Below are positions 7,229 to 61,233 of a DNA stretch of 64,000 nt, piece by piece. Each line of letters starts with the position of its first letter. The first letter of the stretch is position 1. The DNA is taken from assembly GCA_031082125.1 (NCBI GenBank), contig JAVHLM010000005.1, positions 186,001-250,000 of the forward strand, in the 5' to 3' direction. The DNA is from Candidatus Eremiobacterota bacterium (GTDB lineage: Bacteria > Vulcanimicrobiota > CADAWZ01 > Ess09-12). A model generated the notes under the pieces. That model searched no databases. It was not told the DNA's origin and worked only from the letters and a program-made list of their open reading frames with translations. The position numbers and the translations under genes were made by a program.

Positions 7229-8248
7229 ATGGATACCAGAATATTTGAGATCCGCAGAGGCCAGAATGACCAGGATCTGGAAGAAGCGGCGGCCATCCTG
7301 AGAGGAGGGGGGCTTGTAGCCTTCCCTACTGAGACAGTCTATGGCCTCGGCGTCAGTGCCGGGAACCTGGAGAGCGTGAAACAGGTATTCCAGGCCAAGG
7401 GGCGGTCATTCTTCAACCCCATGGCCTTTCATCTTCCCGCCTTCGAGATGGTGACTCCTTATGTGAAATCTGTGCCGGAGGAGGCTCAGGCCCTTGCACG
7501 CAAGTTCCTTCCCGGCCCCCTTATGCTCCTTCTTGAAAAGGCCGAAAATGTTCCCGATCTCATCACGGCAGGCTCAAGGAAAGTGGGAGTAAGAGTGCCC
7601 AGGAATTCGCTCGCATCCGCCCTCTTCAGGAAGGCCGAAGTACCGGTGGTGGCCACAAGCGCAAATGTCTCCGGCCGTTTTTCACCGACTACGGTAGCCC
7701 ATGTGATCGATGAGCTCGGGGGGATAATAGATGCCATTGTCACGGGAAGTGATGAGGAGGTTCTGGGCATAGAGTCCACCATCATTGACGTCACCACAAG
7801 CCCTTTCAGGCTGACGCGGAGCGGTTTCATCACCCATGAGCAGATTACCAAAGTTCTGGGGTATGCCCCCATGCTCTCCGATGATGACAGGTTTTCGAAG
7901 GCCGACAAGATATCCAGGGATATGAAAATTATCCTCGTGGAGGGCGAATCGGAAAAAGTGCTGAGGAGAATGAAAACCCTCATCGCCAACCTTCCCCAGG
8001 GAAGCCAGGTGGGGCTCCTTATCACGGAGAACAGCGCCGCCCATATCGGCAATGAGCCCTGCACGAGAGTCATGGGCCCCCGGGGCAACCTGGAAGTTAT
8101 CGCGAAGAATTTTTTCTCATGCCTGCGTTCCTTTGAAAAGGAGAACACCAAGGTGGTCCTCGTTGAGGGCATCTCCCGCGAGGGGATAGGCTGGGCGCTC
8201 ATGGAGCGCCTCGAGAGAATGGCAAGCGAAGTCATCAAGGTTGAGTAG
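7229..8248 (+). CDS. L-threonylcarbamoyladenylate synthase, Sua5 type
   Basis: Makes threonylcarbamoyl-AMP from Thr, bicarbonate and ATP, the first step of tRNA t6A37 modification. The YrdC domain (about residues 15-200) has PTETVYGLG, the KGRSFFNPM substrate loop and the STIIDV strand. The protein continues to 339 aa with a C-terminal Sua5 domain, so it is Sua5-like rather than the short TsaC form. The ATG at 7229 has GAGG five bases upstream; a GTG six bases earlier is possible. Its last 14 bases overlap the convergent birA gene. MtaB, which modifies t6A further, is encoded at the other end of the window. Confidence 0.9.
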   Translation: MDTRIFEIRRGQNDQDLEEAAAILRGGGLVAFPTETVYGLGVSAGNLESVKQVFQAKGRSFFNPMAFHLPAFEMVTPYVKSVPEEAQALARKFLPGPLMLLLEKAENVPDLITAGSRKVGVRVPRNSLASALFRKAEVPVVATSANVSGRFSPTTVAHVIDELGGIIDAIVTGSDEEVLGIESTIIDVTTSPFRLTRSGFITHEQITKVLGYAPMLSDDDRFSKADKISRDMKIILVEGESEKVLRRMKTLIANLPQGSQVGLLITENSAAHIGNEPCTRVMGPRGNLEVIAKNFFSCLRSFEKENTKVVLVEGISREGIGWALMERLERMASEVIKVE

Positions 8249-48127: not shown

Positions 48128-48278
48128 CCGCTCAAGCTGCCATGAGGAGGTGGTGGTTTTATTTATAAATACAGGGGTTTTTATTTTCCCCTCCCCATGG
48201 AGGTCCCTCCTCTCCAGCGCGAGGAGTTTTCCGCTGCGGTACAGAACCTCTATACCATCATTATCGAAGGGGGAGGCC

Positions 48279-49304
48279 ATGAAGGACTATTACAGGATAC
48301 TGGGCCTGGACCCGCTGGCGGAGCCGGAGGTCGTCGCTGCCGCGTACAAGGCGCTCCTGGGGAAGTATCAGGATTCCCGTGAAGCCGGCACCGAGGGCAG
48401 ATTGAACGATATCATCGAGGCTTACGGGGTGCTGGGCGACAGCGTGAAGCGGGCCGGCTATGACAGGGAGTGCCAGAGCGCCCTTGAAGCCCTCTCCTCT
48501 CCCGGCGGCGGAAGGCCTTCGGGGTATCCCCGGAAAAACACCTTCGGCTATGACGAGCATGAGAATTCCCTTGACAATGCCGTGATGATTCTCATACCCC
48601 CGGGGGAGTTTCTGATGGGGTCACCCGTAGGTGAAGGCTATGGCGAGGAGCATCCCCAGCGCAATATATACCTTGATCCCTTTTATATTTATAAATACGA
48701 GGTGACCAACGGGCAGTTCGCCCGCTTTGTCAATGAAACAGGGTATAAGGCCAAGGGTGACTGGGAAAAGTATGCCGTCCAGGGCAGGGAGAGCCATCCT
48801 GTCATCAATGTCACCTGGACTGATGCCCAGGCTTACTGTCAGTGGGCAGGCGGAGACCTCCCGACAGAAGCGCAGTGGGAGAAGGCGGCCCGGGGCATTG
48901 ACGGCAGAAGGTTCCCCTGGGGCGATCACTGGGACAGGAACAAGTGCAACAATGTTGACACTGACAGCAGTGAATACAGGGCTCTCCGCGCCCATCTCTA
49001 CCTGAGAAGAGGCACGACGCCCGTGGGGGCCTTTTCTGAAGGCGCGAGCCCTTATGGCTGCATGGACATGGCCGGGAACGTGTGGGAATGGTGCGGGGAC
49101 TGGTATGACCAGCAATACTATCAGAAAAGCCCTGTGAGGAATCCTCCGGGGCCCCTCCAGGGAGATGCCCGGGTCTACCGCGGCGGCGCATGGAATAATG
49201 ATGCAACGACGGGCTTCCGCTGCGCCTACCGCACCGGGAGTCCCCCGGGCGAGACGAACTTCCTTTTCGGCTTCCGCCCGATGCTTCTCCTCAGCGGCGA
49301 ATGA
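48279..49304 (+). CDS. J-like domain fused to an FGE/SUMF1-type domain
   Basis: A 341-aa cytoplasmic-looking protein. Residues 1-65 follow a DnaJ J-domain (DYYRILGL, AAAYKALLGKY, IIEAYGVLGDSVKRAGYD), but the HPD tripeptide needed to stimulate Hsp70 is replaced by QDS (residues 31-33). Residues ~98-341 are a formylglycine-generating-enzyme-type domain: LIPPGEFLMGSP, KYEVTNGQFARFV, LPTEAQWEKAARG, GNVWEWCGDWYD, RGGAWNN and GFRCAYRTG. The C-x4-C copper pair of true sulfatase activators is not seen. ATG has GGGGGAGG four bases upstream; the frame is open earlier but reads as noise. Role unknown. Confidence 0.82.
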   Translation: MKDYYRILGLDPLAEPEVVAAAYKALLGKYQDSREAGTEGRLNDIIEAYGVLGDSVKRAGYDRECQSALEALSSPGGGRPSGYPRKNTFGYDEHENSLDNAVMILIPPGEFLMGSPVGEGYGEEHPQRNIYLDPFYIYKYEVTNGQFARFVNETGYKAKGDWEKYAVQGRESHPVINVTWTDAQAYCQWAGGDLPTEAQWEKAARGIDGRRFPWGDHWDRNKCNNVDTDSSEYRALRAHLYLRRGTTPVGAFSEGASPYGCMDMAGNVWEWCGDWYDQQYYQKSPVRNPPGPLQGDARVYRGGAWNNDATTGFRCAYRTGSPPGETNFLFGFRPMLLLSGE

Positions 49305-49379
49305 TGAGGTCGGAAGTGTTATGTGATTGCCAGGTGGTCAGCATCTGAATAGTAATAATCAACTGAAAGGGTGGGTATC

Positions 49380-50231
49380 ATGAAGTTCTTCGCGGTGTTT
49401 CTTGCAGGTTTTCTTCTCCTGGCTTTCCCCGTGGAGGCTGAGACAATGCTTCCTCCTGAGGGAGCTCTTATCGTGGGGCCGAGCCCCGTCGTCACCTTCC
49501 AGTGGGACTATCACGGGAGTATGCACTATCTTGAGGTCTACTCGGGATCGGCGACGGTGTTCTCAAAACCGGTGGGAAGCGGTTCCTGTTCCCTGACGCT
49601 CAAGCCTGATCTTGAGTACCGGTGGAAGCTCCGGGAATATGTCAATGGTGGTTACCAGTCCCCGGCTGATTTTCGCAAATTCACCACCTCATCCCGCACG
49701 GAGTTTTCCCATAACGGCGCTGCCGGCGCCACGGGAGCCCAGGGAGGCACCGGTGCTGAGGTGAAAGTGATGCTCCAGGAGCAGGGAGGCTTTATCGAGG
49801 TCACCATTGAGCCTGCTCTAGGCCCGAAGGAAGCTTTTCTCATCCAGAAGAGTCCCGTGAGCCCCGTCACCATCTCTTCCGAGGGCGGTCCCGGGGGCAC
49901 AGGTGCTGCCGGTGCGGAAGGCATGTATGTCTCGTCGGTCTCGGGAAGCAGCGGTGGCCCCGGTGGCAAGGGTGGCCCCGGCGGCGACGGTGGAAAAGTC
50001 ACGGTGCTCTCCAAAGGGACAGATCTCAGCAAGTATGTGAAAGTCTCAGTGAAAGGCGGCCCCGGCGGCAGTGGCGGCGCCGGAGGGAGCGGCGGCAGCG
50101 CGGGCTATTATGAGACCGCTTCTGACGGCACCCAGGTATGGCGTCCCGGCACCAAGGGCGCCGATGGGCCCCGCGGAGCAGAGGGTGAGGCGGGAAAAGA
50201 GGGCAAGGTGGTTTACGAGGTAGCCAAGTAA
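49380..50231 (+). CDS. Secreted glycine-triplet (collagen-like) protein
   Basis: A 283-aa protein with a signal peptide (MKFFAVFLAGFLLLAFPVEA), a fibronectin-like stretch (residues ~25-105), and then glycine-rich tracts at about 112-127, 169-181, 192-205, 226-242 and 257-275. The last reads as six Gly-X-Y collagen triplets (GTKGADGPRGAEGEAGKEG); the others are looser GGPGG types. The tracts are separated by short beta-like, charged segments. An export and cell-surface or matrix role is likely; function unknown. ATG with AAAGGGTGGG upstream is preferred over GTG 49371. Confidence 0.75.
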   Translation: MKFFAVFLAGFLLLAFPVEAETMLPPEGALIVGPSPVVTFQWDYHGSMHYLEVYSGSATVFSKPVGSGSCSLTLKPDLEYRWKLREYVNGGYQSPADFRKFTTSSRTEFSHNGAAGATGAQGGTGAEVKVMLQEQGGFIEVTIEPALGPKEAFLIQKSPVSPVTISSEGGPGGTGAAGAEGMYVSSVSGSSGGPGGKGGPGGDGGKVTVLSKGTDLSKYVKVSVKGGPGGSGGAGGSGGSAGYYETASDGTQVWRPGTKGADGPRGAEGEAGKEGKVVYEVAK

Positions 50232-50354: not shown

Positions 50355-50383
50355 TTGACATTTGATAACAAATGATATATAAT
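50355..50383 (+). promoter_or_regulatory. Perfect consensus sigma-70 promoter
   Basis: TTGACA at 50355-50360 and TATAAT at 50378-50383 with exactly 17 bases between match the consensus at all twelve positions. The surrounding AT-rich tract repeats the word GATA/GATAT (50364, 50374, 50384, 50395), a plausible binding array for the HTH protein encoded just downstream. Such a perfect promoter normally needs a repressor to hold it down. Confidence 0.8.
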
Positions 50384-50416
50384 GATATTAAAAGATAGTA
50401 AATGAGGTAAATTATT

Positions 50417-51940
50417 ATGGAAAAAGACATTCTGGATGCCGAGGAAGCCCGGGAGTTCTTGAAGACCTCGAAGCCCACATTTTACCGCTGGCTCAAAGCG
50501 GGAAAAATTCAGGGCTTCAAGGCGGGAAAGCAATGGCGCTTCTACAGGAGCGACCTCGTGGCGTTCCTGGAGACCACGGGAACGGAGCTGCTGCAGCAGA
50601 GGGGAGAGATAAGGGAAGCCCTGGATTTTTTTGCCACGCGGGTCACCGAAAAGCGCCTGGGAAAAAAAGCAGTGGCGGAGAGAGTTCAGGTGACGAGCTC
50701 GCTTGAAAAGCAGGATCTTCTGAGAAGGCTTGTATTCATGCTTTTTCTTGATGCTTTTCAGGAGAAGGCCAGCGATATTCACCTTGAACCCCGCAGCGGC
50801 GGCGCCCTGACGGTAAAATACCGGACAGGCGGGGCTCTGAAAGCCCTTATGGATCTTGCCCCTGATGTGGCAGCTGATATGGCGGTTCAGCTGAGAGAGA
50901 TGGCGGGGCTTTCCCCTCTGTCAACAGGAGCAGCAGAAAGAGGAAAGTTCAGTTTTGATGCAGGAGAATTCGTTGAAGGCTCTCCGATTTCGCTGAAACT
51001 CAGCACGCTCCCCACTCTGGACGGAGAGAGGATCACTGTCTCCCTGGACCCCTTCTCCAGCGTGGAAGCAGCGATGAAACAGGGATTTGGATCTCTGGGA
51101 TTCAGGGGCGCCGATATCACCACCGTGAGCGAGATATTTGACAAGAAATCGGGAGTCGTCGTCGTGACGGGCCCCGCCGGGAGCGGGAGAACAACGGCCT
51201 GCCACAGCGCCTTGAACCATATCCAGAGAAAGGCTGCGGGAAGCGCCAATATTATCGCCCTCGAGGATGAGATAGCCTACCGCTCCGAAAGCATCACCCA
51301 GGTAAAGCTCGAAGGAGCCGACAGCAGGGGCATGGTGGAGACCCTCCAGGCGGTGATGTGGCAGGATCCCGACGTGGTGTTCCTGAGCACCCTCCCGGAC
51401 AGGGAGGCCGCCCGCCTTGCCTGCGAGATTGCCCTCACGGGGCACCTGGTCATTCTCCAGGCAGAGAGCCCCGATATCATGCACGCCCTGGTGAAGCTCC
51501 GGGCCCTCGGCATCGATATCTCCACCCTCTCGACGCTGCTGGAGGGAGTTCTTGCCCTCAGGCTCGTTAGGACCCTCTGTGAAGAGTGCCGGGAAGAATA
51601 TGTCCCCTCCAGGGAAATATCTGACCGTTACTTTCTTCCTCTTTACGGGCGCTGGTTCAATGAGGGGGGAAGCCCTTCCCGGGGAGGCCCCGTGAAGCTT
51701 TTCCGGGGAAAGGGCTGCAGCAGCTGCCGCATGACAGGCTTCAGCGGCAGAACGCTCCTCTATGAGCTGCTCAACCCGGACAGGGAGATAAAGGAAATAC
51801 TCTCCCAGGGTCTTGAGCCCGACAAGCTCATGGAAGCATTGCTGGAAAAAGGCTTCCTCACGCTCAGGGAAAGAGCTTTCTCCTATGCCCTCGCGGGGGT
51901 GACCACCATTGAGGAGGCTCTGAGGGTGAGCCATATTTAA
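50417..51940 (+). CDS. Excisionase-type HTH fused to a degenerate GspE/PilB ATPase
   Basis: Residues 1-53 form an excisionase/MerR-like helix-turn-helix (DAEEAREFLKTSKPTFYRWL, then GKQWRFYRSDLVAFLE). From about residue 85 it follows the type II/IV secretion ATPase fold (ASDIHLEPRSGG, GHLVILQ, and two CxxC pairs CEEC and CSSC near 390-435). Key residues are altered: the Walker A loop is GPAGSGRTT with Arg258 replacing the catalytic Lys, and the Walker B region reads QDPDVVFLSTLPD without the Glu of GEIRD. ATP hydrolysis is therefore doubtful. It is followed 34 bases on by an intact PilB, its likely parent. A DNA-binding regulator of pilus assembly is one hypothesis. Confidence 0.85.
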   Translation: MEKDILDAEEAREFLKTSKPTFYRWLKAGKIQGFKAGKQWRFYRSDLVAFLETTGTELLQQRGEIREALDFFATRVTEKRLGKKAVAERVQVTSSLEKQDLLRRLVFMLFLDAFQEKASDIHLEPRSGGALTVKYRTGGALKALMDLAPDVAADMAVQLREMAGLSPLSTGAAERGKFSFDAGEFVEGSPISLKLSTLPTLDGERITVSLDPFSSVEAAMKQGFGSLGFRGADITTVSEIFDKKSGVVVVTGPAGSGRTTACHSALNHIQRKAAGSANIIALEDEIAYRSESITQVKLEGADSRGMVETLQAVMWQDPDVVFLSTLPDREAARLACEIALTGHLVILQAESPDIMHALVKLRALGIDISTLSTLLEGVLALRLVRTLCEECREEYVPSREISDRYFLPLYGRWFNEGGSPSRGGPVKLFRGKGCSSCRMTGFSGRTLLYELLNPDREIKEILSQGLEPDKLMEALLEKGFLTLRERAFSYALAGVTTIEEALRVSHI

Positions 51941-51974: not shown

Positions 51975-53708
51975 ATGGCAAGGTCAAGAGAGAGCGACAT
52001 GGGTTCACTGCTTGCAGAATACGGCATGGTGACGGAAAGGCAGCTTGAAAAGGCGCGGGATCAGGCGGAAAAGTTCCATGAGCCCCTGGAAAAGGTAGTG
52101 GCGAGGATGGGCTTTGCCACGGAGAAAGAGATCACCGAGGTCATGGGAAGAAAAATGGGTGTGGATTTCGTGGACCTGGAGGAAAGGGAATATGACGGCG
52201 AGCTCGTCCATGCAGTCCCGGAGCGCTTTACCCATCAATACAAGGTCTTTCCCGTGGAGCTGAGGGAGAACAGGCTCACCCTTGCCATGGTGGACCCCTT
52301 TGATGTCATTGCCATCGATGACATCAGGCTTGTCACCGGTTATGACATCGAGCCGGTCATTGCCACCGAGGGCGCCATCATGGACGCCATCAACAGGCAC
52401 TATTCCACCACCGCCATGGTTGAGGCCAATGATGTGCTCAAGGGCCTCAGCGCAGCCGACGTGGAAGCCTTCGAAGCGGACAATGCCGATGAAGAGGAAT
52501 TCTCTCCGGAGCAGATCAAGGAGCTTGTCAATGAGGCGCCTATTGTCCGCGTGGTGAATCTCATCATCTCTCAGGCCATCAGTGACAAAGCCTCTGATAT
52601 TCATATAGAACCCGAGACAAAGCTGGTAAGGGTCCGCTACAGGGTGGACGGCGTGCTCCATGACGTCATGGAGCCTCCACGCCATATTCACGCTCCCATG
52701 GTCTCGAGGCTCAAGATCATGTCCTCGATGGATATTGCCGAGCGCCGCGTGCCCCAGGACGGGAAGATTCACATGCGCCACGACCACCGGGAGTTTGACC
52801 TCCGCGTCTCCACAATACCCACGGTCCACGGCGAGAAGGTGGTCATGAGAATCCTGGATAAGGGCTCGGTGACCCTCGGTCTCAATAACCTTGGCTTCTA
52901 CCCCGACGTGCAGAGCCGCCTGGAGCAGATCGTGGAGAAGCCCTACGGAATGTTGCTGGTCACGGGCCCCACGGGCTCGGGGAAATCAACGTCCCTTTAT
53001 TCCATTCTCAACAGGCTCAACAAGGGAGAGGTGAATATCGTCACCGTTGAAGATCCCGTGGAGTACCAGATCCAGGGCATCAGCCAGGTGCAGCAGAATG
53101 AAAAAGCGGGCCTCACTTTTGCGACGGCCCTGAGGGCATTTCTCCGCCAGGACCCCGATATCATCATGGTGGGCGAGATCCGTGACCAGGAGACAGCAAA
53201 GACCGCCGTGGAGGCAGCACTCACGGGGCACCTTGTGCTCTCCACCCTCCATACCAATGATGCGGCAGGGGCTGTCACAAGGCTCACCGAAATGGGCGTC
53301 GAGCCCTTTCTCTGCGCTTCTTCGCTTATAGGCGTTCTTGCCCAGCGCCTGGCGCGGTGCATCTGCCCCAACTGCCGGGAGTCCTACACTCCCCCCGTGG
53401 AGTCGGTGAGAAGATTCGGCCTCTCCGCCTATACCGATTCGGAGATCGTTTTTTACCGGGGAAGGGGATGCGATCACTGCAAGATGACAGGCTACAGGGG
53501 GAGAACAGGGATCCATGAGCTGCTCACCATGTCGGACAGGATAAGAGGTCTGATTCTTCAGCGCGCTTCAACGGCAGAGCTCAGGCAGTGCGCCATAGAG
53601 GAGGGCATGAAGACCATGCCTGACGACGGCCTCAGAAAAGTGCTTGACGGCGTCACCACCATAGAAGAGTGCCTCAGGGTGGTCTATATCGAAGGACAGG
53701 AGCTCTGA
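51975..53708 (+). CDS. pilB: Type IV pilus assembly ATPase PilB
   Basis: Hexameric ATPase that powers pilus extension. The N-terminal MshEN/GspE-N domain covers about residues 8-150. The catalytic core has ASDIHIEPE, the Walker A loop GPTGSGKST starting at residue 331 (Lys337), the Asp box TVEDPVEY, Walker B RQDPDIIMVGEIRD, and the His box LTGHLVLSTLHTND. The CPNC and CDHC pairs form the zinc site. At 577 aa it is complete. Its platform protein pilC is encoded 6.4 kb away on the other strand; no pilT, pilM-Q or prepilin peptidase is in the window. Confidence 0.95.
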   Translation: MARSRESDMGSLLAEYGMVTERQLEKARDQAEKFHEPLEKVVARMGFATEKEITEVMGRKMGVDFVDLEEREYDGELVHAVPERFTHQYKVFPVELRENRLTLAMVDPFDVIAIDDIRLVTGYDIEPVIATEGAIMDAINRHYSTTAMVEANDVLKGLSAADVEAFEADNADEEEFSPEQIKELVNEAPIVRVVNLIISQAISDKASDIHIEPETKLVRVRYRVDGVLHDVMEPPRHIHAPMVSRLKIMSSMDIAERRVPQDGKIHMRHDHREFDLRVSTIPTVHGEKVVMRILDKGSVTLGLNNLGFYPDVQSRLEQIVEKPYGMLLVTGPTGSGKSTSLYSILNRLNKGEVNIVTVEDPVEYQIQGISQVQQNEKAGLTFATALRAFLRQDPDIIMVGEIRDQETAKTAVEAALTGHLVLSTLHTNDAAGAVTRLTEMGVEPFLCASSLIGVLAQRLARCICPNCRESYTPPVESVRRFGLSAYTDSEIVFYRGRGCDHCKMTGYRGRTGIHELLTMSDRIRGLILQRASTAELRQCAIEEGMKTMPDDGLRKVLDGVTTIEECLRVVYIEGQEL

Positions 53709-53792: not shown

Positions 53793-54542
53793 ATGAAGCT
53801 TTTAGTGGTGAATGGGAGCCCCCGCGGGGCCCATGGAAACACCGAGCTGCTCGTGCAGAGGTTTATCGAGGGTGCGAAGGCTGCCGGGGCTGAGCTCATG
53901 GCCCCCATCTACCTGAAGGATAAGAATATCAGGCACTGCATAGGGTGCTTCACCTGCTGGACGCGCACTCCGGGGGTCTGTGTCCACAAGGACGACATGC
54001 AGGAGCTTCTGCTGAAGCTCCGTGAGGCAGAGGGAGTGGTCCTTGCCACGCCCCTCTATTATTTCAATATCACGGGGCTCATGAAGGATTTCATGGACAG
54101 GACCCTCCCGCTCTGCCAGCCCTTCTTTGAGGTGCATGGCGACAGGTGCATGCACCCCCTGCGCTATTCAAACGGCCTTGAGCGCCTGGTGGTCATCTCC
54201 AACTGCGGCTTTCCCGAGCAGGCCCACTTCTCAGGCCTCAAGGAGGTGTTCCGTACCCTGGTGAGGAGCGATCAGATTCAGTTGAACGGGATGATATGCT
54301 GCGCAGGGGGGGAGAAGCTGCAATCCAAGGATGACGACGACAGCATCGCGTGGTATCTTGACGCGGTGAAGAAGGCCGGCACCGAGGTGGTGAAGGAAGG
54401 AAAAATCTCCGAAGAAACCTCGGCCCTCCTTGAGCGCCCTCTCTTCGAGGATTCCAAGGCTTATGCCCTCCAGACCAACGAGTTCTGGCGCTCCCTGGGC
54501 CTTGAGCCCTGCAAGAAAGATGCGAAGCCCACCCCGGCCTGA
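53793..54542 (+). CDS. Flavodoxin-family NAD(P)H:FMN oxidoreductase-like protein (copy 1)
   Basis: An FMN-binding fold: VVNGSPRGAHGNTELL at residues 5-20 is the phosphate loop. The cysteines Cys49, Cys52, Cys55 and Cys63 (HCIGCFTCW...GVC) follow the C-x2-C-x2-C-x7-C pattern of iron-sulfur flavoprotein relatives; many relatives with similar cysteines have no cluster, so this is open. LATPLYYFNITGLMKDFMDR is the flavin-stacking region. At 249 aa it has a C-terminal helical tail. It is a tandem paralogue of the next gene; electron partner unknown. Confidence 0.85.
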   Translation: MKLLVVNGSPRGAHGNTELLVQRFIEGAKAAGAELMAPIYLKDKNIRHCIGCFTCWTRTPGVCVHKDDMQELLLKLREAEGVVLATPLYYFNITGLMKDFMDRTLPLCQPFFEVHGDRCMHPLRYSNGLERLVVISNCGFPEQAHFSGLKEVFRTLVRSDQIQLNGMICCAGGEKLQSKDDDDSIAWYLDAVKKAGTEVVKEGKISEETSALLERPLFEDSKAYALQTNEFWRSLGLEPCKKDAKPTPA

Positions 54543-54578
54543 GAGGGGCCCACTCCCACCTGTGAAAGGAGAATTGTC

Positions 54579-55700
54579 ATGAAGCTGCTTGTGATACAGG
54601 GGAGCCCCCGCGGGGCCCATGGAAACACCGAGGTCCTCGTGCAGGCTTTTATCCAGGGCGCAAGGGAAGCCGGCGCCGACATCATGGAACCCGTTTATTT
54701 AAAGGAGAAGGACATAAAGCACTGTATCGGGTGCTTCTCCTGCTGGACGCGCACGCCGGGAGTCTGCGTCCACCACGACGACATGCCCGGGCTTCTCTTG
54801 AAGGTCAGGGAGGCCGATATGCTCGTCCTCGCCACGCCTCTCTATTATTATACGGTCTCGGGATTCATGAAGGATTTCCTGGACCGGACCCTTCCCCTGT
54901 CGCAGCCTTTCCTCGAGGTGGAAGGCGACTGCTGCGGCCACCCTCCCCGTTATACCAGCGGTCTCTGGAACCTTGTGGTAATCTCCAACTGCGGCTTTCC
55001 CGAGCAGGCTCATTTTTCAGGATTGAAAGAGACATTCCGCGTAATGCTCCACGGAGACAAAAGCGAGCTCAAAGGCATGATATGCTGCGCCGGAGGGGAG
55101 CTGCTGAAGGTGAAGGAGCTCAGGGACGGCCTTGCATGGTATCTTGACGCAGTGAAGAAGGCAGGCGCCGAGGTGGTGAAGGAAGGGAAAGTCTCCGAGG
55201 GCACTTCGGCCGTTCTTGACCGCCCCCTCATGGAGGATCACAACCTCTATGCGAGCCTTGCCAATGAGCACTGGCGCTCCCTGGGGGTAAAGCTCCAGGA
55301 GGTGGACGCGCAGGGGGCGCCCGATGAACAGGGAGCACCGGAAGGAAAGCCTCTGCCTCCCCCCGGGAAAGTGGAGACGATGGGAGATCTCGTGGCCGCC
55401 ATGGCGGCAGCCTTCAACCCGAAGGCCGCGGGCTCTTTGAAGGCGGCGGTGCAGTTCGTGGTCACCGACGAGAAACCGGGGGAATATTATCTAGTCATCG
55501 AGAGCGGCCGCTGCAGCGCCTGGCAGGGAAAGCACCAGAAGCCCAGTGCCACGGTGACGACACCGGCACCGGTATGGCTGGGTATCTACCGGGGGGAAAC
55601 CAACGGGGCCACGGCCTTCCTTTCGGGCAAGTACAAAGTGGCCGGCGATGTGGGCCTTCTGATGAAGTTCAACGCCCTTTTTCCCCACGCTCCTCGCTGA
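54579..55700 (+). CDS. Flavodoxin-family oxidoreductase with C-terminal SCP2-like domain (copy 2)
   Basis: Residues 1-250 repeat the previous gene closely: QGSPRGAHGNTEVLV, the cysteines HCIGCFSCW...GVC and the flavin region ATPLYYYTVSGFMKDFLDR. After a Pro/Gly-rich linker (about 245-265) comes an extra ~110-residue SCP2 sterol-carrier-like domain (MGDLVAAMAAAFNPKAAGSL, ... KYKVAGDVGLLMKF). SCP2 domains bind hydrophobic ligands, so the fusion may hold a lipophilic substrate such as a quinone near the flavin; this is inference. The leader AGGAGAATTGTC repeats that of copy 1, as expected after duplication. Confidence 0.85.
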   Translation: MKLLVIQGSPRGAHGNTEVLVQAFIQGAREAGADIMEPVYLKEKDIKHCIGCFSCWTRTPGVCVHHDDMPGLLLKVREADMLVLATPLYYYTVSGFMKDFLDRTLPLSQPFLEVEGDCCGHPPRYTSGLWNLVVISNCGFPEQAHFSGLKETFRVMLHGDKSELKGMICCAGGELLKVKELRDGLAWYLDAVKKAGAEVVKEGKVSEGTSAVLDRPLMEDHNLYASLANEHWRSLGVKLQEVDAQGAPDEQGAPEGKPLPPPGKVETMGDLVAAMAAAFNPKAAGSLKAAVQFVVTDEKPGEYYLVIESGRCSAWQGKHQKPSATVTTPAPVWLGIYRGETNGATAFLSGKYKVAGDVGLLMKFNALFPHAPR

Positions 55701-59487: not shown

Positions 59488-60207
59488 ATGAGCCTCTTTC
59501 CTCTCCTGCTGCCCCACTCCCCTCAGGATCTGAAAATCTGTGCAGGGGCCGAAGCGGCAGTGGAGAAGTTTCTGGAGGAGAAGATTCCCCAGGGAGCTGC
59601 CATGCTTGCAGATTTTTATAATCGCACCTGCGAGGTCTTCCGCGAGGTTGAAAGCTTCCTCCCCTCCACAGGGGGGAATGTATGCCTTGCCTGCAATATC
59701 TGCTGCAGCAGCGTTGCCTCACTCGGCGTCACTGAGCTTGAGTTTGACTATATTCATGAGTTCCTCGAAAGATCCGGCAGGGACGTGGAAGGGGCAGCCC
59801 TTTTCAGGGACTATATCTTTACCGTGAGGAAGCCTCCCGATGTGAGGCCTCAAAAGCTCATATGCCCCTTTTATGACCGGAAAGCTGAGGGATGCGCCAT
59901 TTACGAGGTCAGGCCCCTCTCCTGCAGGACTTACGGCCATTTCATCAGGGAGGACCTTCTCGGGCTTATTCCGGAGCGCTGCGTGCTGAAAAAAAATGTG
60001 GTGATTTATAAAGAGGAGACTTTTTTCAGGTATCTTCCCTTTACCATCCCCTTTTTCACCCTGGCCTTCGCCTACGATGACCATTTGCTTTCCTCAGCCG
60101 AGCTTCTGCAGCAGCGCATAAAGGGGCAGGAACACGGCAATGATGATAAAGCCGATGATGACCCCCGTGAAAAGGATGAGGAAGGGCTCAATGAGCACCG
60201 AGAGTGA
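59488..60207 (+). CDS. YkgJ-family cysteine-cluster protein
   Basis: The metal-binding cysteines lie in VCLACNICCSS (about residue 69) and further on in CPFYDRKAEGCAIYEVRPLSCR, the CxxCxxCC...C...RPLSCR pattern of the YkgJ family, which probably holds zinc or an iron-sulfur cluster. Function unknown. From ATG 59488 it is 239 aa. The last ~38 residues (from about KGQEHGNDDKADDD) are charged, overlap the end of pilC on the other strand, and are probably not conserved; the real protein may be shorter functionally. Confidence 0.75.
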   Translation: MSLFPLLLPHSPQDLKICAGAEAAVEKFLEEKIPQGAAMLADFYNRTCEVFREVESFLPSTGGNVCLACNICCSSVASLGVTELEFDYIHEFLERSGRDVEGAALFRDYIFTVRKPPDVRPQKLICPFYDRKAEGCAIYEVRPLSCRTYGHFIREDLLGLIPERCVLKKNVVIYKEETFFRYLPFTIPFFTLAFAYDDHLLSSAELLQQRIKGQEHGNDDKADDDPREKDEEGLNEHRE

Positions 60208-61233
60208 CCCCAGGGAGCTCTCCACGTCCTGCTCATAGAGATGGCTGAGCTTTCTCAGCACCACAGGGAGCTCGCCTGATTCTTCGCCTACTCTTATCAT
60301 GCTCGGGAACATCCCCCCGAAGAGGTTCCTGTGGGTTCCAAAACCTGTGGCCAGATCCATTCCTTCCTTGATAGAAGAGGTAATAGACGCCACGGACTGT
60401 TCATAAACGCTGTTGCCCGAAGCCTTTCCTGCAAGCTCAAGGGCTTTCCTGAGCTCCACCCCTCCCTCCAGGAGGGTGCAGAGGCTGTTGGTGAAGCGCA
60501 CAATGCAGATTTTTTTTGCAAGCTCCCCGAAATAAGGAAAAGAGAGTGACGCCTGGTCAATGACGTATTTCCCGCGGGCACTGAGGGAGAAGCGCTTGAG
60601 GGCAAACATGAGGAATCCGCCAAGGACAAGGCCGGCAACGACGAAGAAAGGATTATCCACGATCTCGGTGAGGAAGATCATGATCCTGGTAGGAAGGGGA
60701 AGGCTCACCTGCATGTTCTGAAAGAATTTTACAAAATTGGGCAGGATGTACTTGAAGGTGAAAAGGGCGAAGAGAAGGCATACTGCCAGGGCGAAAAGGG
60801 GGTATACCGAGGCATTGGCGATTCTCTTTTTTATATTTACCTCGCGCTCCAGGAACTGCTCAAGGTTCTCAAGCACCAGGGGGAGATCGCCATGGGCTTC
60901 CCCTGTGCGGATAATCCCCACATATATCTGGTTGAAGACCTCGGGGTATTCGTTAAGGGCTTTCGAGAGGGTAAATCCTGTCTTTATGCGCGTGTTGATG
61001 CGAAAGAGCATGCGGTGCATGGCTTCCTTGTCTATCTGCCCCGCGAGGGTATCAAAGGCCTTCACCATGTGGACCCCGGCGTTGAGCAGCGTGTGAAGCT
61101 GCCTCGTGAAAACGAGAAGATCCTCCTGGGTGATCCTCTCGAAAGGATTCCAGGGGGGCTTCTTGAGAGGCTCCACGGTCTTCGTGGGCTTCTCAAGCAT
61201 CTTGGTGCTGTAAGCCGGTTTTTTCTTTTCCAT
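60094..61233 (-). CDS. pilC: Type IV pilus platform protein PilC
   Basis: Inner-membrane platform protein (GspF family) that works with PilB. Two F domains are seen, each with three membrane helices: FTRQLHTLLNAGVHMVKAF in the first and FTNSLCTLLEGGVELRKAL in the second. The GEESGELPVVLRKLSHLYE segment and the C-terminal IEPFLILFTGVIIGFIIIAV helix complete the family pattern. At 379 aa it is typical. It lies nine bases after the DUF72 gene on the same strand. Together with PilB and the pilin genes it shows a working pilus or related system. Confidence 0.93.
   Translation of the reverse strand: MEKKKPAYSTKMLEKPTKTVEPLKKPPWNPFERITQEDLLVFTRQLHTLLNAGVHMVKAFDTLAGQIDKEAMHRMLFRINTRIKTGFTLSKALNEYPEVFNQIYVGIIRTGEAHGDLPLVLENLEQFLEREVNIKKRIANASVYPLFALAVCLLFALFTFKYILPNFVKFFQNMQVSLPLPTRIMIFLTEIVDNPFFVVAGLVLGGFLMFALKRFSLSARGKYVIDQASLSFPYFGELAKKICIVRFTNSLCTLLEGGVELRKALELAGKASGNSVYEQSVASITSSIKEGMDLATGFGTHRNLFGGMFPSMIRVGEESGELPVVLRKLSHLYEQDVESSLGSLSVLIEPFLILFTGVIIGFIIIAVFLPLYALLQKLG

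Follow-up and report, generated by a model that had tools for sequence, protein, structure and literature searches.

A recurrent module of an HTH domain and a pilus/secretion-type ATPase core with a putative phased-repeat operator in Candidatus Eremiobacterota

Is what a pilus motor is doing ever passed on to transcription in bacteria without an intermediate pathway? The known links from the pilus motor to transcription use separate pathways, among them cAMP-Vfr, PilSR and Dif. A gene in a 64,000-nt stretch of contig JAVHLM010000005.1 from a Candidatus Eremiobacterota bacterium (hereafter, the window) touches on this question, for its product joins a DNA-binding domain to an ATPase core of the motor family, and relatives carry the same two parts either as one protein or in one operon. 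At issue is whether this protein is part of a motor, a gene regulator made from a motor part, or a relic.

An open-reading-frame check retrieved the gene on the forward strand at 50417–51940, as in the initial annotation, with an ATG start and 507 encoded amino acids. Pfam assigned residues 6–53 to HTH_17 (PF12728; 52 bits, cut-off 27) and residues 97–503 to T2SSE (PF00437; 194 bits, cut-off 24.9), both over the curated cut-offs, and thereby bore out the annotated union of an HTH and a GspE/PilB core in a single protein; the HTH additionally scored 39.9 bits with TIGR01764 (cut-off 28.8). No MshEN/N1 match was found in the protein by Pfam, HTH_17 standing in the N1 position. The linker between the two domains (residues 57–97) aligns with the C-terminal helix of stand-alone HTH proteins from split modules (see below).

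Several catalytic positions of the core are altered. Walker A reads GPAGSGRTT, with Arg258 at the Lys position, and the GEIRD stretch has become STLPD (G324S, E325T, R327P), which places Thr325 where the Walker B Glu belongs. Both losses had been recognized at the outset, as had the intact PilB gene 34 bases downstream (51975–53708, MshEN plus T2SSE); further changes had been missed, namely P285E and E287A in the Asp box, Glu in place of the His-box His (H350E) and the replacement of most conserved arginines (K134, G171, K194, S209). In total, 32 of 83 positions near-invariant in PilB/GspE are altered. Retained, on the other side, are the P-loop glycines, T260, E283 and the zinc C4 motif (C388, C391, C434, C437), and the GC3 of the 507-codon ORF, 0.68, is coding-like and close to that of neighboring genes. 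Loss of the P-loop Lys makes even the nucleotide binding proposed at the outset uncertain, and R258 may abolish it altogether.

The protein thus shares with PilB/GspE ATPases (PF00437; TIGR02538, TIGR02533) the core fold, the P-loop glycines and the C4 zinc motif, at about 30% identity, but differs in having an N-terminal HTH instead of N1/MshEN, in its missing Walker A Lys, Walker B Glu and His-box His, and in scoring far under the equivalog cut-offs (243 vs. 630 bits and 207 vs. 676 bits). The modeled core matched the PilF/PilB/GspE structures 5oiu, 5tsh and 1p9w with a TM to target of about 0.8; since the shallow input alignment contained PilB-type proteins, the main lesson of this match is that the fold is not forbidden. 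A single-sequence model of the HTH was poor (pLDDT 57; order H-H-E-E-H), and its Foldseek neighbors—TubR (E 0.25), Xis and BldC—are hints from a low-confidence model. Searching PDB sequences with the HTH profile gave no relevant match.

Table 1. Coordinates of predicted features at the HTH–ATPase locus (window positions).
Feature	Position	Strand	Details
Sigma70-type promoter	50355–50383	+	TTGACA (50355–50360), 17 nt, TATAAT (50378–50383); 12/12 consensus bases
Putative operator	50360–50409	+	Five 10-bp direct repeats: ATTTGATAAC, AAATGATATA, TAATGATATT, AAAAGATAGT, AAATGAGGTA; exact 10-bp period
HTH_17, excisionase/BldC-like winged HTH (residues 1–56)	50417–50584	+	Pfam, TIGR01764; low-confidence model H-H-E-E-H
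Helical linker (residues 57–97)	50585–50707	+	Alignment; modeled helices 65–81 and 62–78
N1-less T2SSE/PilB-type core	50708–51940	+	R258/T325/E350/A287 at catalytic positions, zinc C4 kept; Pfam, residue table, modeled fold
Second pilB (pilB2), MshEN and intact T2SSE	51975–53708	+	Pfam; 34 nt 3′ of the window ORF

A profile search of 149 genomes of the host phylum, with the HTH plus its helix as query, revealed eight copies of an HTH paired with a T2SSE core; they come from five genomes (the host genome being G000), which belong to five families. With seven further copies in the phylum, the combination of HTH_17 and T2SSE recurs and the architecture seen in the window is more than chance. Four copies are fused, i.e. 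the window copy, G007:C4 (44% identical to the window protein), G007:C246 (30%) and G012:C13 (29%). In the remaining four, HTH and ATPase are encoded separately, with the N1-less ATPase gene directly behind the HTH gene: the two are 44 nt apart in the second copy of the host genome (at C2) and 228 nt apart in G012:C27, are separated by stop codons in G006 and overlap by 4 nt in G143. That these gaps differ among independent assemblies argues against sequencing errors as the cause of the splits, and the existence of the same pair in both fused and split form suggests that the two parts work together. All eight ATPases are without an N1/MshEN domain, and conservation between copies amounts to 40–56% in the HTH and 26–43% in the ATPase part. 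In a tree of 61 rows, a branch with SH-aLRT 79 separated the eight module ATPases from all other rows, with the five closest grouped at 83 and the window protein paired with G007:C4 at 99; the window protein sits on a long branch, and for G007:C246, G143 and G012:C13 the deeper position is unsure because of long branches. Weaker HTH matches in G000:C48, G005 and G028 had no T2SSE core in the surrounding DNA examined.

Catalytic erosion within the family is graded, from the apparently intact G012:C13 and G143 to degraded copies, the window copy being among the most degraded. The Walker A Lys is present in all seven other copies and the Walker B Glu in six (it is missing only in the window copy and G007:C246), the His-box His is missing in four of the eight, and the zinc motif is found in every copy. 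Relatives hence do not share the altered residues, and loss of catalysis appears as a trait of the window copy and not of the system; the Walker A K-to-R exchange is ruled out as a clade hallmark. Two outcomes had initially been named as speaking against the proposal: an intact Walker A Lys in the same clade, which is what all seven other copies display, and loss of the HTH in all relatives, which did not occur, as the HTH persists. Some of the copies with all catalytic motifs (G012:C13, G143) may still be motors. G012:C13 (L057:5262–6851), whose HTH is joined to a GspE-type ATPase that is intact throughout, lies close to a gene for a large sensor kinase and offers a catalytically intact comparison. 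The host genome (7.43 Mb, 97.6% complete) has an unusually large set of T2SSE/PilT-family matches, 38 in number.

A peptide-seeded scan of 84,980 species, which reaches close relatives only, found no HTH fusion. Plasmid records likewise contained none, their matches starting at residue 24 or later and the annotated ones being ordinary GspE/PulE genes, and viral contigs gave generic HTH matches only and no fusion. In line with the initial statement that no system of this architecture had been described, we found no description joining HTH_17 and T2SSE in the open-access literature.

Side-by-side reading of the module upstream regions first brought repeated TGATA words to view. With TRAT as their core, direct repeats of a 10-bp period lie over the promoter in seven of the eight module copies (lag-10 periodicity, P < 0.002 to 0.026 vs. 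dinucleotide shuffles); no lag-10 array was found upstream of G007:C246. The window array is the most regular of all, with a lag-10 identity of 29/40 (shuffle mean 15.4, maximum 23 in 500), compared to scores of 25 for the split G000 copy, G012:C27 and G007:C4, 23 for G143, 22 for G012:C13 and 20 for G006. It spans the promoter spacer, the –10 element and the leader as far as the ribosome-binding site. Region 50355–50410, singled out early on as a place for DNA binding, thus holds a sigma70-type promoter that matches the consensus perfectly, and lying over it are five repeats whose like recur at related modules. Of the seven array-bearing promoters, six contain TTGACA-N17-TATAAT with matches at 11–12 of 12 positions; copies vary in the phase of their repeats relative to the –10 element, which indicates that the repeats are not a mere by-product of the promoter.

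The scan pattern (TRATW N5)×4 was partly derived from the promoters on which it was then tested, except for G143 and the shuffle tests. At one mismatch or fewer, this four-repeat pattern occurred in the 7.4-Mb host genome only upstream of its two modules and in G006 only at the module promoter, each time in gene orientation. In G143, whose promoter was unused in choosing the pattern, it occurred at up to two mismatches only upstream of the module, again in gene orientation. Background matches turned up in G007 and G012, both AT-rich, and there the pattern is not specific. Similarly, lag-10 scores of at least 25 were reached by 15 of 8,826 host-genome segments, all from the two module promoters. 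The top score in sampled host DNA outside the module promoters (22/40) belongs to a GC-rich segment at 7521–7700. A version of the pattern with a 9-bp period matched neither module array. The natural reading is that selection has kept the array layout, since unselected intergenic DNA would lose it at the protein divergence seen between families. Scans with four and three repeats for a wider regulon yielded no convincing additional site, the candidates being plain promoters, coding DNA or near control frequency; the module's own promoter was the only target found.

Only the window copy, among the eight, has a pilB behind it. The 34-base gap contains an AGGAGG ribosome-binding site, and no terminator-like site was found on the forward strand between the two genes, from which pilB2 is probably co-transcribed with the window ORF and under the same control.

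How, then, is the module to be read? From sequence and genome context, we give a probability of about one half to a DNA-binding module that controls its own expression and has a pilus/secretion-motor ATPase as its base; the window protein is most likely no motor but a gene regulator made from a motor part. Of interest is less a dead ATPase of a single genome than the recurrent, probably autoregulated pair of HTH and T2SSE with its phased putative operator, of which the window would hold a catalytically dead form placed before pilB2. TRAT words at 10-bp steps, in gene orientation and across the –10 element, fit self-repression and binding of the type described for BldC, a small MerR-like wHTH whose multimers line up head to tail on AT-rich direct repeats (PMC5859096). 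With BldC the module shares a small wHTH, an AT-rich direct-repeat array (a putative site here) and a weak similarity between modeled and known structure; BldC differs, however, in being a free 68-aa protein with the repeat AATTnnnnC, whereas the HTH of the module comes with an ATPase and its repeats have TRAT as their core. The BldC profile NF033787 had no match to the window protein up to E 0.01 and reached only 20 bits in one relative, at a cut-off of 77.

By analogy, there is a strong case that HTH domains would sit next to one another on the repeats, all on the same DNA face, and would thereby cover the –10 element and repress their own gene, together with pilB2 in the window. Less firmly, the ATPase part may no longer drive a pilus and may form a complete or partial ring. 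The hold of the HTHs on the array could then change with the assembly of this ring, with its nucleotide state, or when it touches PilB subunits or the platform protein. A hexameric core would offer up to six HTHs, near the number of repeats, and where the P-loop survives, nucleotide state could change how they are presented. For the catalysis-dead window copy, the input would be subunit contact (e.g. with free PilB) in place of ATP turnover, and the outcome a feedback between the level or state of PilB and the transcription of pilB2. There is precedent for a PilB-type ATPase with regulatory output independent of hydrolysis: a Walker A mutant of Myxococcus xanthus PilB is an active signal and signals without hydrolysis (PMC5544727), although that protein is the motor itself, acts via Dif proteins and has no DNA-binding domain. 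Only tentatively do we extend this to an undescribed class of regulators, in which DNA-binding domains borne by a motor-type ring engage phased repeats and transcription directly reflects how the ring is assembled or what its nucleotide state is; the pseudo-ATPase described here would read the state of PilB. The T2SSE fold seems to have been recruited away from filament assembly; the putative operator is precise enough for tests in E. coli and provides a clean set of phased repeats for studying serial binding by HTH_17 domains.

Rather less probable is an autoregulated accessory subunit of a motor, in which the HTH would set only the dose. The ATPase part would act at the pilus machine, where it could slow or boost PilB rings by stacking onto them or joining in them, much as PilU relies on PilT. 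Paralogue coupling of this kind is documented, PilU depending on PilT and PilB, PilT and PilU interacting in two-hybrid tests (PMC6762196). Such a subunit would also suit the split copies, where HTH and ATPase are separate proteins, the retention of the Lys, the GE pair and the His in several copies, and the position of the window copy 34 nt before pilB2. Yet a pilus gene adjoins this one copy alone, no module ATPase has the N1/MshEN domain, the HTH occupies the N1 place in the fused forms, and several copies have eroded catalytic motifs.

An autoregulatory module also accounts for the locus better than decay, in which the ATPase of the window copy would already be dead and its ORF would survive by chance. 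The long branch and the 32 altered positions of 83 are what a relic would look like, but 507 codons remain open with a GC3 near that of the neighbors, and the losses are non-random: they strike catalytic residues but spare the four zinc cysteines, the P-loop glycines and E283. That this copy has the most regular array of all, and a perfect promoter, further makes a relic unlikely.

A DNA-tethering or partition-like cassette, composed of an HTH adaptor, an NTPase and a direct-repeat site in its own promoter that the ring would clamp, move or position, seems more doubtful still. TubRZC and ParMRC of plasmids combine a DNA-binding adaptor/repressor, an NTPase and a direct-repeat site in the shared promoter (PMC5016525), a layout that the module matches—as layout only—with its small wHTH adaptor/repressor, adjacent NTPase and upstream array. 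Confinement of the site to the cassette in three genomes would agree with this, as would TubR among the weak Foldseek neighbors of the low-confidence HTH model. On the other hand, the module NTPase is of another family and occurs in fused forms; the contigs that carry the two host copies are long (287 and 369 kb), and ordinary chromosomal genes surround both; the fusion is absent from plasmid records; the arrays are short, with about five repeats; and the window copy has lost NTPase residues.

Adjacency is all that speaks for the initial proposal that the protein arose by duplication of the neighboring pilB and capture of an HTH, and this origin is ruled out, as the HTH protein groups with the module ATPases and a tree constrained to unite it with the neighboring PilB is worse by 75 log units (AU p = 0.0002). 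Given this rejection and the 76% identity of the window PilB to the canonical PilB of the genome over its whole length (tree path 0.15), we take the neighbor to be a second PilB and not the parent of the window protein. The canonical pilB-pilT-pilC operon is located on another contig, C3 (L199), and pilT and pilC are absent beside pilB2.

Other genes nearby, named from sequence reading, include one for a PilC/GspF-like platform protein (60094–61233, reverse strand) and, just past the window end and 3–5 kb beyond the platform gene, one for a GspE-type ATPase (L198:1308–2894), placing the window near a second pilus/secretion cluster. Behind this cluster come cyclic-nucleotide-binding HD-GYP, adenylate-cyclase-like and FecR-like genes, likewise read from sequence. 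Directly upstream of the HTH–ATPase gene, 49371–50231 encodes a putatively exported protein that is rich in GPGG/GGxG repeats and has no Pfam match, preceded by a gene whose product combines a DnaJ domain with a formylglycine-generating-enzyme (FGE-sulfatase) domain in one fusion (48150–49304). Beyond pilB2 lie two tandem NADPH-dependent FMN reductase-like genes (53793–55700), the second with an SCP2 sterol-transfer domain.
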